A stretch of 8,955 nucleotides of DNA from a bacterium. Lineage in GTDB: Bacteria > Chloroflexota > Dormibacteria > UBA8260 > Bog-877. The DNA lies in NCBI GenBank assembly GCA_021817025.1, contig JAKAWF010000120.1, positions 1-8,955 of the forward strand, written 5' to 3'. The position numbers and the translations under genes are program-made. The notes under the pieces are model-generated. The model was not told where the DNA came from. It made no database searches and saw nothing but the letters and a program-made list of their open reading frames with translations. This document shows positions 3,276 through 8,955 of the stretch, one piece after another (the stretch's first letter is position 1; the number at the start of each line of letters is the position of its first letter).

Positions 3276-3755
3276 TCAACGAGGAACCGCGAAGCCGCCT
3301 TGGTCACCAGCGTGGCTCTCGCGGCGAGCCTCTACCTCGACCGCATCCAGCGCAGCTGTGACGGTATGCACGTATAGGGCGATCCCGGCAGTCCACCTCG
3401 GCGGAGCGGTGGTGGCGCAGCCGGCCGCGATCACGTCGAGGTAGCCCTGCCACCCTGGTCCGGGGATGGCCGGACGGAGGTACGGCAGGCGGGTAAGCGC
3501 TGCGCAACGTGCGGCCAGCGCCCTCTCCGCATCAACGAGCTGGCGCAGTTCTAGCCCTACGGCAGTCGCCTCGGCAGTCAGGGTGGGGGGGATGTCCCAC
3601 CGCTCGCGGCTGCCCACCCACCAGAGTTCGACGGTCTCCAGACCTGGCCCCGGACGCAGGCCGATGCCAAGCCTGTAGAGGGTGCGGAGCAGCGCGAGGA
3701 TCTGGCCGGCATCGGCCGACCGGGCAGGCGTGCTGCAGTGGGGTGGCGCAGCCAT
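3276..3755 (-). CDS. Hypothetical protein of primase operon (159 aa)
   Basis: I do not recognise this protein. ATG at 3755 is preferred because AAGGAGG ends seven bases upstream; a GTG at 3758 directly before it is the alternative. The start overlaps the stop of the preceding gene (GTGATG), so the two are translationally coupled. Residues about 18-75 (ILALLRTLYRLGIGLRPGPG..VELWWVGS..LTAEATAVGLELRQLV) read as helix-strand-strand-helix, loosely recalling the small TubC-docking-like folds found near mobile-element primases; this is speculative. A Trp-containing mid region and a helical C-terminus rich in Ala, Val and Glu follow. There are no cysteine clusters, signal peptide, membrane span or catalytic motif. 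Its position between the primase partner and the serine recombinase suggests a role in element replication or its control. Confidence 0.7.
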   Translation of the reverse strand: MAAPPHCSTPARSADAGQILALLRTLYRLGIGLRPGPGLETVELWWVGSRERWDIPPTLTAEATAVGLELRQLVDAERALAARCAALTRLPYLRPAIPGPGWQGYLDVIAAGCATTAPPRWTAGIALYVHTVTAALDAVEVEARRESHAGDQGGFAVPR

Positions 3756-4570
3756 CACATGCCCTCCTTGGGGGCGCAGTCGGTCTCTCTGTGCAACAGC
3801 TCCGCCAGCTCCGCGTGGTGGGCTCGCAGCCAGATGGCGTCGGAGCTAGCCCCGCCGGTGGGATGCTCGGCGGTCAGCCCATCCTCCGGGCTCAGCCCGA
3901 GCCTCCAGTCGAAGGCCGTCAACGCCGCCACCCCGGCCGTCAGCGGGTCGGGCGGCGCTCCCAACCGGCTCGGGGTGGGCACCAACCTCAGCAGCCTAGT
4001 CAGCCGCTCACGGTGGGGCAGCAGGTAGCGCTCTCGGTCCACCTCCCAGGCGGCCAGGTCGTGCCAGACGGACACCAGCTCGGCCGGGTCGATCCGAGGC
4101 TCGATCCTCCAGCGCCCGTGGGTGAAGGTCAGCAGCGCTCCGCCACAGCGGGCTCCGTGGATGACGCCGTACAGCCCCTTGAAGTCCGAGCGGTCGGTCG
4201 AGGCATAGGCAAGCAGGTGAGCCCAAGCCAGAGAGTCAGCCTCCAGCTCCGGCCTCGGGTCGGAGGGTTCTGTCAGTCTTGGTAGGGCCCCGCCTGGCTG
4301 TTCCAGACGCGTGGCGGCTTGGTTGAGAGAATCTCCGCTCCCACCACCCGGCCCGCTAGCAACGGAGCTGGCGACTACCGACCTCTCGGTTGGAGCATCA
4401 TGAACCTCCGAAGATTGCGCCTGGCTCCCCGGAATCTGGCCGTGGAAACGCATAGGGGAAGCACTGCCAAAACTGCCAAAACCGGGGTCGCGGGTGGTTC
4501 TGTCAGTTTTGGCAGCGCCCCGGGTGGGCGTTTCCGGCTTGAAGTCGAGCCACCGGGACCGCCAGGTCAC
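3755..4570 (-). CDS. Hypothetical primase-partner protein (271 aa) with embedded inverted repeat
   Basis: Starts at GTG 4570, overlapping the primase stop (GTGA), with AAGGGGG six bases upstream. The first ~110 residues look disordered and are rich in Ser, Gly, Pro and Thr. They include AKTDRTTRDPGFGSFGS (20-36), a peptide produced by a DNA inverted repeat (4464-4515). The folded part, about residues 112-205, has a GLYGVIHGARCGGALLTFTHG-type helix-strand segment, a strand RWRIEPR, and a helical WHDLAAWEVDRERYLLPHRERLTRLLRLV stretch. The C-terminus (about 210-271) is helical and ends in HHAELAELLHRE. The central module resembles in outline the helix-strand-strand-helix of the next gene's protein, so the two may be distant relatives (inference). 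I cannot assign a function. Tight coupling to the primase suggests a replication accessory or regulatory role. Confidence 0.75.
   Translation of the reverse strand: MTWRSRWLDFKPETPTRGAAKTDRTTRDPGFGSFGSASPMRFHGQIPGSQAQSSEVHDAPTERSVVASSVASGPGGGSGDSLNQAATRLEQPGGALPRLTEPSDPRPELEADSLAWAHLLAYASTDRSDFKGLYGVIHGARCGGALLTFTHGRWRIEPRIDPAELVSVWHDLAAWEVDRERYLLPHRERLTRLLRLVPTPSRLGAPPDPLTAGVAALTAFDWRLGLSPEDGLTAEHPTGGASSDAIWLRAHHAELAELLHRETDCAPKEGM
3762..3769 (-). promoter_or_regulatory. Strong ribosome binding site for the 159-aa gene
   Basis: The minus strand reads AAGGAGGG here, with GGAGG seven bases before ATG 3755 but only four before GTG 3758. This spacing decides in favour of the ATG start. The site lies within the last codons of the upstream gene, consistent with coupled translation. 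Confidence 0.7.
4266..4285. repeat. Extra copy of the right arm of the 4464-4515 inverted repeat
   Basis: GGTTCTGTCAGTCTTGGTAG matches the right arm at 4496-4515 (GGTTCTGTCAGTTTTGGCAG) at 18 of 20 positions, in the same orientation and 230 bp away. Similarity continues on the 3' side (GCCCCG, then TGG, then TTCC) and more weakly on the 5' side (GGGTCG). In the overlapping gene this copy is read in a different frame (LPRLTEP) from the other copy (AKTDRTT), so the similarity is at DNA level. Confidence 0.7.
4464..4515. repeat. Long inverted repeat, 20-bp arms and 12-nt loop, inside a coding sequence
   Basis: The left arm CTGCCAAAACTGCCAAAACC (4464-4483) and right arm GGTTCTGTCAGTTTTGGCAG (4496-4515) are complementary at 18 of 20 positions; the outer 12 bp are perfect. 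The 12-nt loop is 4484-4495. The left arm is itself a tandem of the 9-mer CTGCCAAAA. It lies 55-107 bases into the 271-aa gene, within its apparently disordered leader, and could form a hairpin in mRNA or a cruciform in DNA. Confidence 0.85.
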
Positions 4571-6960
4571 TCTGATCCCCCTTGGCCAGCGGCCTTGTCC
4601 CGGAGTTCGGGGTGGATGCGGATCACCTCCGACGGGCGGCCACCAGACGGGTCGGCGATATCAACCACTCGCACCCAGCCCGCGCTGACCAGAACAGTGA
4701 GCCCGGCCCGAACGCGCTCCGGGTCGGTTAGCCCAGACCAGCCGTGCCGGTAGATGTCCCGCAAGCTGCTGCGGTCGGGGACTTGGCCCTTCTCGATCCT
4801 CTGCGCCAGCACCGCTGCCGTGCTGAGAACGGGGTCGAGCTCCTCCGCGTAGACCTTTCGCGCGTGTTGCTCAAGAAAGTCGACCCAGGCTGCCCCGAGT
4901 TGAGTGGCTTGGAGCGATACTGGACCTGCCGCCCCACCGCTCACGACTTCGATCAGATGGAATGTCAGAGCGAGTGCTGGGAGCAAGGAACGGTATTTGG
5001 CAAGATGGGAGTTGAACGCGGGCGCGTCCGCGTAGATGCCGCCGCGGAGGTGGCCTTCGAGTTCATCCCGAAACGCGTCGTAGAGCTCCTGTGCATCTGG
5101 TGCGAAGGTGAGGAATGGCAAATCGTTGGCACCTTGATCTGCAGAGAGGGTGCTGGGATCGAGGTGGTCGAGCTGGCTGAAGCACTCGGTGGCACGGGCG
5201 CGCGCCTTGCCGTCGGGCCAGCGATGGGGTCGCTCCCACGGCGGCAGTGCGTCGGGCCAGACGAGAATCTGCAGGCGCTGCAGGAGTCCGTCTGCCCCCC
5301 AGCCCCCGAGCACGGCTTCGGCGACGTAGCGACGGAGCTTGCCAGGCTGGATGCCACCGAACAGACCAAGGCACAGGGCAGGGATGTGGATCGTGCCTCG
5401 TCCGATTCGGTCGAAGGTGTAGTCGCCGGTGCCATTCCAGCCTTCCAGGTAGAATTCCCGTTCTCCCTCGCGCCCGGGCTGGTCCATCATTCTCAGCAGC
5501 CCCGTTAGCTCATCTCGAAGCACTAACAGGCCTCGGGGGTTCTCGCGCAGGAGTTCGCCGAGCTTGGCCACCGTGGAGTCCTGGGTCACGTACCGACGTT
5601 CGACGATCTCCAATTTGGCCGCTTCTTCGTGCTTGACGCGGAGCTTGTCCTCGGCGTCGTCCATTTCGGCGGCCTTTCCGGCCTTCACCGCCGCGTGGAG
5701 GCGATCCTTGATTACCTTGATCTCCAACCCAAGGCGTTCCATCGCACTGACGTTCCCCTCGACCTCCAACTGGTAGGTGGCCATCGCCTCACGGGCAAGG
5801 CCGAAGATTGGGCGGGTGCCCTCGGCGATCGCCTGGGTCTTCATATCGCCAGACGGGCCGACGATCGCGCCCCACAGGTTCGCCACCACGAGGAAGTCGT
5901 CGAATTGGTTTGGGCGAATGGCCAGCTGGCGGCCAATGATGTTGCCAGCCGCTACGACAGCGGGCGCCGCCAGGTATTCGAGCGGCAGCTTGGCTCGGTC
6001 GGCGGCGTCTATGAGCCACGGGCGCCAGGGGCCAGGTACCAACTCGGCGGGTAGCGTCGGAGTTGGCTCAGGCTTGGGAAGGTCCTTCCGGAGGGGCCAG
6101 GGCTCTTTCTCATCGCACGGCAGGCTCGCGGGTCCGGCTGGGGCGTATCTTCCCACCGACACGGCGATCCTATGTACTTCTTCATCGTCAAGGGGCGGCT
6201 GGCAGCGCTCTTGGTTCTCTACCAGCAGAGCGGCCTCAATGGCCGACGCGGACATGCCTGGGCGGCGCATCAACCCTGCGAGGGACGCCAGGGTTGCGTT
6301 GCGTTGGCCCTCGACGAGCACCTCCTCGACGGGGGCCTTGGTCAGGGGTCTCTTTCGCAGCAGGTGCAACAGCCACTCCGGCGCCGCGGGTAGCGCCCCA
6401 TCGATCGGGCTGCGCCACTCATAGAGGGCGCTACCTTTTGCATGCACACTCGGCGGCGCCACCACGTAGCCGTTCACCCCCCGCCAGTCCCAGCCAGGCC
6501 TGAACCCGACAAGGTTTTGGCCGCCGGTGGCCTGGAAGTAGAAGTGCATGCCCTTGGCGGTGAAGACGCTGGGGAGCGCCTTGGGGTCCCCGTCGTCTGC
6601 CCGCACCATGGACTCGAACTCCACCACCGCGTCCGTGGTGTCGAGATCGAGCACGTCAGCCCAGACGCCAGTTCGCAGCCCCACGTTGGCGTCGGGCAAC
6701 TGCGTCCACCAGCGCTCCACGGTGGACACATCGGTGCTGGCGTCCAGTAGCCCCCGGGGGGTCCGGGGGTGTTTGCCGACCGAAGGGCAAATGGCCTTCC
6801 CACATGAGCAGCCCGCGCCGACGGGGCTGTGCAGGGGGAACACGGGCCAACCGCGTCCGGCATAGGCCAAGGCGGCCTCGCCCTGTGGCGATAGGCTGGC
6901 TGACCTCCCACTGCCACCTGGACCTTGGCGGGTTGGAGACGCCGGTTTGGCGGTGGTCAC
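4567..6960 (-). CDS. Bifunctional primase-polymerase with DUF3987 helicase-like domain
   Basis: A 797-aa replication protein. Residues about 25-200 form an archaeo-eukaryotic-type Prim-Pol domain: GEAALAYAGRGWPVFPLH near the start, CSCGKAICPSVGKHPR (51-66, C51/C53/C58/H64), the acidic motif DVLDLDTTD (102-110), GMHFYFQ (137-143) and GVNGYVVAPPS (161-171). Residues about 217-272 (GQRNATLASLAGLMR..DDEEVHRIAVSV) match a primase C-terminal helical module. From about 300 on, a DUF3987-type P-loop domain follows: Walker A-like GAIVGPSGDMKT (364-375), a long helical stretch, a Walker B-like LLVLRDELTG (478-487) and FGGIQPGKLRR (534-544). Priming and unwinding are thus joined in one protein, as in many plasmid and phage-like elements, and would support replication after excision. 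The start is GTG at 6960 with a modest GGCGG five bases upstream. The same frame stays open without a usual start codon back to about 7080. The gene heads the operon and its stop overlaps the next start. Confidence 0.93.
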   Translation of the reverse strand: MTTAKPASPTRQGPGGSGRSASLSPQGEAALAYAGRGWPVFPLHSPVGAGCSCGKAICPSVGKHPRTPRGLLDASTDVSTVERWWTQLPDANVGLRTGVWADVLDLDTTDAVVEFESMVRADDGDPKALPSVFTAKGMHFYFQATGGQNLVGFRPGWDWRGVNGYVVAPPSVHAKGSALYEWRSPIDGALPAAPEWLLHLLRKRPLTKAPVEEVLVEGQRNATLASLAGLMRRPGMSASAIEAALLVENQERCQPPLDDEEVHRIAVSVGRYAPAGPASLPCDEKEPWPLRKDLPKPEPTPTLPAELVPGPWRPWLIDAADRAKLPLEYLAAPAVVAAGNIIGRQLAIRPNQFDDFLVVANLWGAIVGPSGDMKTQAIAEGTRPIFGLAREAMATYQLEVEGNVSAMERLGLEIKVIKDRLHAAVKAGKAAEMDDAEDKLRVKHEEAAKLEIVERRYVTQDSTVAKLGELLRENPRGLLVLRDELTGLLRMMDQPGREGEREFYLEGWNGTGDYTFDRIGRGTIHIPALCLGLFGGIQPGKLRRYVAEAVLGGWGADGLLQRLQILVWPDALPPWERPHRWPDGKARARATECFSQLDHLDPSTLSADQGANDLPFLTFAPDAQELYDAFRDELEGHLRGGIYADAPAFNSHLAKYRSLLPALALTFHLIEVVSGGAAGPVSLQATQLGAAWVDFLEQHARKVYAEELDPVLSTAAVLAQRIEKGQVPDRSSLRDIYRHGWSGLTDPERVRAGLTVLVSAGWVRVVDIADPSGGRPSEVIRIHPELRDKAAGQGGSE

Positions 6961-7494: not shown

Positions 7495-8061
7495 TCACTG
7501 GGCGGCTGGCTGACCAGCTGGGGGTGTGATGCCGGCGTAAGCCGCCATCATCTTGCCGATGCCCTCCATCAGCTTGGGTGGGTCCACATCGCCGCACGCA
7601 GTGGATACGGCTCTCTCTGCCTCGCGTTTGACATAGCGCCAACGGTCAGCATCGCCGGGATACCGTGTGGCTTGGCGCTCCGCGATGCCAACCCAGGTTT
7701 GGTGTCGGACGAAGTGCTCCCAGGCCCAAAGTGCTCGGCGCGCCCATACAGGCTCGACGTCTCGGCGGAGTCGAGGCGGTTGACCTCCCATCTGGCGATC
7801 TGTACGGGATGCCCAATCTGCCAGGTTGTGGATGTGATCACGGGCTGTTGACCAGGACATGCCAGCCGCTGGCCAGGGCGGAGGGGCTTCGAAGGATTGT
7901 GACGGCAACAGGGGTGGTCCGGCCAATTCTAGGAGTAGGTCAGCTTCGAACTCCTCGAGTTCCAACCCAGCGTCCACGGCCGCACACTCGATCCAGGTTC
8001 TGCGCACCAAGTACTGGTGCAGTCGGGCGATAGCGGGCTGGGAGGGCACCTTGGTAGTCAA
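7495..8061 (-). CDS. Hypothetical protein coupled to the integrase (188 aa)
   Basis: I do not recognise this protein. The start is TTG at 8061, overlapping the integrase stop (TTGA), with GGAGAG (8070-8075) eight bases upstream, which supports it. The N-terminal ~50 residues (ARLHQYLVRRTWIECAAVDAGLELEEFEADLLLELAG) are helical and could include a helix-turn-helix-like turn around AAVDAGLELEEF. A Pro-rich linker (about 48-66) follows. The C-terminal two thirds are helical and Trp- and Arg-rich (WSTARDHIHNLADWASRTDRQ; WARRALWAWEHFVRHQTWVGIAE). There is no cysteine cluster, membrane segment or signal. Its position directly after an integrase makes an excision or recombination directionality role conceivable, but it is much larger than typical Xis proteins and this is only a positional guess. 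Confidence 0.7.
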   Translation of the reverse strand: MTTKVPSQPAIARLHQYLVRRTWIECAAVDAGLELEEFEADLLLELAGPPLLPSQSFEAPPPWPAAGMSWSTARDHIHNLADWASRTDRQMGGQPPRLRRDVEPVWARRALWAWEHFVRHQTWVGIAERQATRYPGDADRWRYVKREAERAVSTACGDVDPPKLMEGIGKMMAAYAGITPPAGQPAAQ

Positions 8062-8955
8062 CCCGACTTCTCTCCGGTCAGGATTCCATCGAGGGTGTTA
8101 GCGACGGCTCGCTGGGCCCCAGGAACTGCGTGGACGTAGGTGCGAAGGGTCGTGAGCGCCGTGCTGTGTCCCAATTGATCTTGGACATCGCGCACTGGAA
8201 TGCCCGCTGCAGCCAGCACCGTGGCCGTGGTATGGCGCAGATCGTGGAACCTTATCCGGGGAAGCCCCAGGGCTACGCAGGTCCGCTGGAATACTTTGGT
8301 GACGTGCGTTCCCTCGCGTGGGGAGCCGGTTGCGGTCGTGAAGATCAGACCGTCGGTGTCCTGCCAGTCTGCCCCGGCAGCCAGACGCTCCGTTAGCTGC
8401 TGAGCGCGTTGCTGGGCAAGGGCGGCAATGGCCACCGGCGGAAGGAGGAGGGTGCGTCGACTTCGGGACGTTTTCGGCTCCCCGAACACCCAGGCGCCGC
8501 GAACCCGCTGAAGCGTCCGCGCGATCCGCAGTTCACCAAGCTCGGGATCGAAGTCGCCCCAATGAAGGCCAAGCAGCTCGCCTTGGCGAGCGCCAGTCGC
8601 GAGTGCGAGCACCCATAGCGGACCGTCCCGCTCGGTGGCAGTAGCCGCGATGAGCCTCCGCGCCTGGCTTCCCGTCAGGATGGTGGGCTCCCGCTCAGGC
8701 ACCCGTGGCGGATCCGCCAAGGTTGCCACGTTTCGGGTTAAGACACCTTCACGCACGGCAGCTGACAGCGCCGCCCTCAAGACCGCGCGGAGATGGTGAA
8801 CGCTCCGCGGAGCATGCCCATCGGCCAGCTGTGCGGCGAGTAGTGCGTTCACCTGGCGTACCTCCAAGCGGGCGAGCGGCACTGTCCCCAGTGCTGGGAT
8901 CACGTGCTGGCGCAAGAGGCCCCGATAGCGCTCGACGGTCCTGGGTCGGCATCGG
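8058..8955 (-). CDS. int: Phage-type tyrosine recombinase/integrase, 5' end outside window
   Basis: 298 residues are visible; the N-terminus lies past 8955. The frame stays open to the edge and reads TVERYRGLLRQHVIPALGTVPL, a normal SAM-like core-binding domain, so a TTG at 8915 is an internal Leu, not the start. The core-binding domain runs to about residue 90. The catalytic domain follows with all six active-site residues: Arg in LATGARQGELLGLHW (R123 of the visible part), Lys in EPKTSRSRR (K161), His and Arg in FHDLRHTTA (H237, R240), His in QLGHST (H263) and the nucleophile Tyr in LRTYVH (Y273). The enzyme therefore appears intact and would carry out site-specific integration and excision of the element. 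Its stop overlaps the next gene's TTG start. No tRNA or duplicated attachment core is visible in the window. Confidence 0.93.
   Translation of the reverse strand, partial: RCRPRTVERYRGLLRQHVIPALGTVPLARLEVRQVNALLAAQLADGHAPRSVHHLRAVLRAALSAAVREGVLTRNVATLADPPRVPEREPTILTGSQARRLIAATATERDGPLWVLALATGARQGELLGLHWGDFDPELGELRIARTLQRVRGAWVFGEPKTSRSRRTLLLPPVAIAALAQQRAQQLTERLAAGADWQDTDGLIFTTATGSPREGTHVTKVFQRTCVALGLPRIRFHDLRHTTATVLAAAGIPVRDVQDQLGHSTALTTLRTYVHAVPGAQRAVANTLDGILTGEKSG

Follow-up and report, generated by a model that had tools for sequence, protein, structure and literature searches.

A mirror-image iteron array behind a DUF3987 helicase gene as the likely replication origin of an integrative mobile element

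The question raised by this locus is why a palindrome should lie within an apparent coding sequence. The window, by which is meant the whole stretch of 8,955 nt analyzed (contig JAKAWF010000120.1 of the Dormibacteria assembly GCA_021817025.1), encodes a protein with Prim-Pol, PriCT_1 and DUF3987 domains and, behind its gene, a 271-aa open reading frame (ORF) that contains the palindrome in its first codons. A preliminary description of this DNA had proposed that the peptide encoded there could be the by-product of a conserved DNA or RNA structure. The palindrome is interpreted here as the probable site at which replication of an integrative mobile element starts, and this origin would be a DUF3987 variant of the rep-ori logic of Staphylococcus aureus pathogenicity islands (SaPI) and phage-inducible chromosomal islands (PICI). 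The components of the array are the following:

4464..4483, plus strand: left arm, two tandem iterons CTGCCAAAA CTGCCAAAA CC (repeat scan)
4496..4515, minus strand: right arm, matching the left arm at 18/20 positions; its two iterons are inverted (the minus strand has CTGCCAAAACTGACAGAACC)
4444..4535, no strand: full symmetric region including outer arms, proposed origin core (repeat finder, fold)
4266..4282, minus strand: third double iteron (CCAAGACTGACAGAACC), which repeats the right-arm sequence in direct orientation at a distance of about 230 bp (direct repeat 4261–4302)

The palindrome of the window is a mirror-image array of 9-bp iterons. As the preliminary description had stated, the two 20-bp arms match at 18 of 20 positions around a 12-nt loop, and the left arm holds CTGCCAAAA twice in tandem. 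In an ungapped scan for short-range inverted repeats, the arm pair (4461–4518) scored 15.5 and was the sole pair of the window to reach 12 or more, while 60 dinucleotide shuffles of the whole window gave no score above 13.5. Pairing continues outward between GGAAACGC (4444–4451) and GCGTTTCC (4528–4535), as indicated by the repeat finder and the fold, and the self-pairing score of these outer arms (8) equals the 95% level of swapped arms. The 17-mer double iteron has three matches in the window versus 0.01 expected, and the copy at 4266–4282, missed in the preliminary description, is inside the same 271-aa ORF but in a different reading frame. The array sits 52 nt behind the end of the Prim-Pol/PriCT_1/DUF3987 gene. 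Its predicted fold is strong (z −6.4), with no T run, as an intrinsic terminator would have, directly behind the hairpin in the window. Rfam gave zero matches at gathering score across the window, and a distant nucleotide search of plasmids with positions 4400–4580 returned a single match at chance level.

The same iterons were found in other genomes. A scan of genome contigs with the exact pattern gave 20 loci, 11 of which have a DUF3987 gene at the array; these records (Desulfamplus, two Deltaproteobacteria, Hyphomicrobiales, Mesorhizobium, Tateyamaria, Paucibacter, Calidithermus, Isosphaeraceae, Fibrisoma and Acidobacteria) span what we take, from their names, to be at least six phyla. The arrays lie at or shortly past the 3′ end of the DUF3987 gene, except that in L016 the array is inside the DUF3987 open frame, with two copies. 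The identical DNA occurs in differing frames and outside open frames. This supports the supposition of the preliminary description that the peptide reflects a conserved DNA structure, here one that recurs beside primase or helicase genes of other elements. In eight of the 20 loci DUF3987 was not found at the locus, and in six of these eight (L005, L013, L014, L018, L019 and L021) it was not found genome-wide; L006 shows only a weak match to a DUF3987 fragment, in a genome without DUF3987. Several of the exact-pattern loci lacking DUF3987 resemble terminator hairpins by eye. The domain fused before DUF3987 is Prim-Pol in the window, NrS-1-type in L004 and L011, PriCT_2 in L131, DnaB_N in L085, or none recognized; since this front or primase domain varies among the loci, the array tracks the helicase domain. 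In L085 (12459–12634), two double iterons that face each other across about 140 nt come after the DnaB_N-DUF3987 gene; this is the array with a long spacer.

The survey was also run from the protein side. DUF3987 genes were gathered with the Pfam model from genomes of the phyla of six motif-first loci, and six extra genes were added from genomes of motif-first loci. Genes with a truncated domain or with less than 250 nt of flank behind it were dropped, which left 129 distinct genes. The measure was the highest-scoring inverted repeat without gaps in the interval between 30 nt before and 400 nt behind the domain end, a score of at least 14 being considered strong. Strong repeats were present behind 55 of the 129 genes, versus 0/645 dinucleotide shuffles and 0/129 in-gene stretches. 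The figure was 51/123 without the six genes of motif-first genomes and, with relatives clustered, 43/111 representatives at 70% identity and 30/91 at 50%. A separate repeat finder exceeded the 99% shuffle level in 59/129, and an array was recorded by either measure behind 76 of the 129 genes. Arranged by the phylum of the motif-first locus, the either-measure counts were 34/52 (Mesorhizobium and Paucibacter), 17/17 (Calidithermus), 8/25 (Isosphaeraceae), 4/10 (Fibrisoma), 2/5 (the Acidobacteria metagenome-assembled genome, MAG) and 7/14 (the Deltaproteobacteria MAG L007), plus 4/6 for the genomes of motif-first loci. Among 68 arrays scoring at least 14, motif-first ones included, the array starts at a median of 40.5 nt past the stop codon (range −427 to 244); 30 of them lie in a possible downstream ORF, six in the DUF3987 open frame and 32 in neither. 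L164 carries behind its DUF3987 gene, beside an array of TGCTATTCC iterons, a perfect inverted repeat with two arms of 39–49 bp (CATTCCCGCGAAAGCGGGAATCC type), which looks like an unrelated insertion and inflates the score of that locus.

Concerning plasmids, eight DUF3987 carriers were chosen, leaving out a near-duplicate Bartonella record, two Bacteroides records, Allocoleopsis and Sinorhizobium fragments. A repeat array or strong inverted repeat stands behind DUF3987 in six of the eight, and in five the inverted repeat scored higher than in any of 40 shuffles. These five are RHOAph of Rhodovastum, where a perfect 24-bp repeat reached 24 vs 13, pSR11 of Salinibacter (22.5 vs 11), a plasmid of Acinetobacter that has the same iteron as the window (18 vs 10.5), a Sulfitobacter plasmid whose iteron character is not clear (17 vs 12) and a Bartonella plasmid (14 vs 13). 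Priestia p3 has many inverted copies of CGTAGACA (repeat score 55.8) without a long inverted repeat (10.5 vs 11). The incomplete gene tables of RHOAph and pSR11 show no further replication protein; the Bartonella plasmid also has RepC and the Sulfitobacter plasmid replication initiator A.

What is conserved in these arrays is a period of 8–11 bp and the mirror layout, while the iteron sequence switches between clades. Iteron cores included CAAAACTGA, TGCTATTCC, TTCGCA, CGCTACTTY, GCTTCCAC, TGCGCCA, TGCCGCCA, GTAGCCA, ACCCGCA and CACTGAC. In 56 arrays (the 55 strong ones and the window), the best repeat lag was 9 nt in 32, 8 in eight, 10 in five, 11 in six and another value in five. Within the Calidithermus phylum, 12 arrays with 12–17 sites and seven iteron types show closely similar mirror layouts, the sites at mirror positions being 16/16, 14/14, 14/15 (two arrays), 12/14 (two), 14/17, 10/12 (three), 10/14 and 8/12. 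When gaps and strands were shuffled, the value of nine of the 12 arrays was not reached in any of 100 shuffles, that of two others was reached once each and that of L228 five times; with strand-only shuffles, a weaker control, the mirror score was reached in 0–21 of 100. The arms are 40–90 nt apart in many relatives.

The protein that could read the iterons is the DUF3987 gene product itself, the relevant features being:

4567..6960, minus strand: initiator candidate, 797 aa, with Prim-Pol (30–196), PriCT_1 (213–274) and DUF3987 (325–705) (Pfam, structure model)
4615..4833, minus strand: codons of the C-terminal winged helix (residues 710–782), proposed iteron reader (secondary structure of the AlphaFold2 model; covariation with iterons)

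This product is modeled as an MCM-like helicase domain followed by a C-terminal winged helix; by sequence, no relative was found in the PDB. Between close relatives, a change of iteron accompanies a change in the winged-helix region. This was seen in a pair analysis at 50–98.5% identity comprising few independent cases, from which six loci with doubtful iterons (L185, L187, L188, L297, L216 and L217) were dropped and in which an earlier similarity measure, which scored phase-shifted iterons as different (e.g., L118/L008), was replaced. A search for close relatives within families obtained few. The association supports the C-terminal winged helix as a candidate reader of the iterons.

The array layout is not exclusive to DUF3987. 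Scores of at least 14 were obtained behind DUF927 genes in 6/30 loci (vs 0/150 shuffles and 0/29 in-gene stretches) and behind VapE-like genes in 10/27 loci (vs 0/135 shuffles and 0/27 in-gene stretches). These DUF927 (L353–L382) and VapE-like (L383–L412) loci are in Pseudomonadota-like genomes, and several have 9-bp repeats by eye; some of the arrays have AT-rich spacers, as described for PICI origins. Another comparable case is the alpha protein of phage P4, a primase-helicase-origin-binding protein with a C-terminal winged helix and iterons, which differs from the window system in its helicase family and in having two separate sites (ori/crs).

The closest known kind is that of the rep-ori modules of SaPI/PICI. 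PMC6092414 describes the PICI origin as an AT-rich region with a set of iterons on either side, located directly 3′ of rep, and shows that a cloned PICI rep-ori segment replicates. The likeness to the pri-rep-ori segments (PMC6092414, PMC7581432) includes iterons immediately 3′ of the gene of a self-loading initiator helicase, two facing iteron sets, a primase fused or adjacent, and a helicase C-terminus as the reader, for which the window has a candidate. On the other hand, the window helicase belongs to PF13148 (DUF3987) and not to DUF927 or the D5-type Rep, its product having DUF3987, Prim-Pol and PriCT_1 as the only Pfam domains, with no DUF927 or D5-type helicase domain. Likewise, the 12-nt spacer of the window (GGGGTCGCGGGT) is GC-rich and not AT-rich, the window array occupies the first codons of the next ORF, and DUF3987 arrays span at least six phyla as assigned above. 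Because the spacer is not AT-rich and the helicase family differs, the window palindrome was not filed as a member of the SaPI/PICI kind. Cch2 of the staphylococcal cassette chromosome mec (SCCmec) is comparable in being an MCM/hexameric-type helicase that binds, through its C-terminal domain, repeats located right after its operon, but it belongs to another helicase family and its binding needed direct and not inverted repeats (PMC7581432). Phage-inducible chromosomal minimalist islands (PICMI) are, in the available text of PMC10803314, satellites of small size that integrate and carry int together with a DUF3987 gene, prim, which their model defines by DUF3987 plus DUF5906; efficient replication of the satellite requires prim, whose deletion in PICMI115 gave fewer circular copies, and no origin is named in that text. 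DUF3987 was predicted to be a mobile-element helicase by Kazlauskas et al. (PMC5862659). An open-access literature search found, in the text it covered, no paper naming an origin for DUF3987 elements.

According to the proposed mechanism, the winged-helix domains of the MCM-like DUF3987 helicase would bind the 9-bp iterons and two helicase assemblies would be loaded as rings, head to head, on the array, a geometry suggested by the mirror-image arrangement of the iterons. These assemblies would open the DNA, and the fused Prim-Pol domain would prime synthesis. Whether DUF3987 genes with their array are, as a class, very widespread self-contained replicons, whose helicase self-loads as a head-to-head pair and whose reader and iteron are repeatedly replaced together while period and dyad geometry are kept, is a broader proposition to which we give an even chance. 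Under this proposition, the layout shared by DUF927 and VapE-like genes would amount to a general rule of mobile-element replication, and origins of this type would leave KTDKT...FVSFVS-like peptides as recurrent traces. DUF3987 is still named as a domain of unknown function. If the origin interpretation is true, the start site of DUF3987 elements could be read from sequence, and the many winged helices that nature has matched with an iteron would make it possible to work out a code of DNA recognition.

Several results weigh against the origin interpretation and the role proposed for the winged helix. No array was recorded by either measure in 53 of the 129 DUF3987 genes, nor behind yfjI of Escherichia coli K-12 (CP4-57), nor behind DUF3987 in two cyanobacterial plasmids, and GC skew of two plasmids gave nothing clear. 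The window spacer departs in its GC richness from SaPI/PICI origins. The covariation comes from few clades, and over all pairs the partial correlation is weak (0.18, vs 0.17 for a core segment). A column-by-column test of residues against iteron class by mutual information was uninformative, and some pairs sharing iterons still differ in the winged helix. Finally, seven loci carry CAAAAC-type arrays with no DUF3987 gene found nearby; these arrays could be origins of other helicases, relics or helper-phage copies. They are L128:2476–2535 (between terminase and portal genes), L124:5842–5890 (near a terminase-like gene), L115:2428–2467 (behind an exonuclease gene), L012:1766–1814 (32 nt from an integrase gene) and, with neighborhoods left unassigned, L001:11802–11850, L003:3303–3352 and L015:636–693.

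Other explanations of the array were considered. It overlaps the junction of two genes and, as iterons can also serve autoregulation, it might be an operator through which the helicase or another element protein regulates neighboring genes, with no role as origin. However, an operator would not usually have as many as 17 symmetric sites or follow the helicase gene instead of preceding it, and the closest characterized relatives have their origin at this place; so, this explanation seems improbable. A recombination, resolution or partition site is brought to mind by the integrase and serine resolvase genes of the window, by ParA on several array-bearing plasmids and by the closeness of the L012 array to an integrase gene, but the arrays follow the helicase gene, similar ones follow DUF927 and VapE-like genes, and iteron change goes along with change of the helicase winged-helix region. 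Among the alternatives, we consider this the least probable.

Only a little more credible, and still quite unlikely, is an RNA or single-stranded DNA hairpin for priming or operon control. It would agree with the strong fold in the window and with some pairing beyond the iterons: in 32 CAAAAC-type arrays the outer arms scored a mean of 6.7 with their own partner versus 5.1 with swapped ones, and reached or exceeded the 95% swap level in ten of the 32. So, there is room for hairpins or more symmetric elements in some loci, although this is not the rule. Against a hairpin stand the lack of Rfam matches, the separation of the arms in many relatives, the presence of TTTT behind just three of the 68 arrays, and the persistence of iteron period and strand order despite the changed sequence. 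Of the functions guessed in the preliminary description, a replication start agrees with the results, while a single-strand start, a transposition target and an RNA regulator are not supported as general functions; period and mirror layout persist where the sequence is replaced. In those ten arrays the pairing beyond the iterons is locus-specific, and some of them may form a hairpin.

The 271-aa ORF is listed here with the integrase gene of the element:

3755..4570, minus strand: 271-aa ORF, array in first codons, conservation limited to the C-terminal part (homologue search)
8058..8915, minus strand: tyrosine integrase gene of the element (Phage_integrase, Pfam)

Besides the serine resolvase, the window encodes a small helix-turn-helix protein (both from Pfam), and no Rep_3-type initiator was found in the nine window proteins scanned, which are part of its ORFs. 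The 271-aa ORF was called with a GTG (4570) as its start; since residue 40, just behind the array, has an in-frame ATG codon, the array may or may not be translated. The homologue search gave 17 hits, mostly matching the C-terminal 57–65%, with more than 90% coverage only in the window's own record (P0121) and P0124. Sixteen of the 17 were inspected, namely the window's own and 15 others. Among these 15 only P0124 carries the peptide (TDETDKT...GSVSFGS); the other 14 have a different N-terminus. The predicted peptide KTDRT...GFGSFGS is, thus, a by-product of the DNA element, as had been suspected, and its reading as a protein signature was rejected. As the N-terminal domain of the homologues differs, the usual gene start seems to have been replaced or displaced by the array in the window's element. 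P0124 probably belongs to the same element as P0002, which is related at 67% to the window helicase, since the longest contigs of the two are equally long (4930). In P0124 another such stretch, LTKLTEP, stands where the window has its third double iteron.
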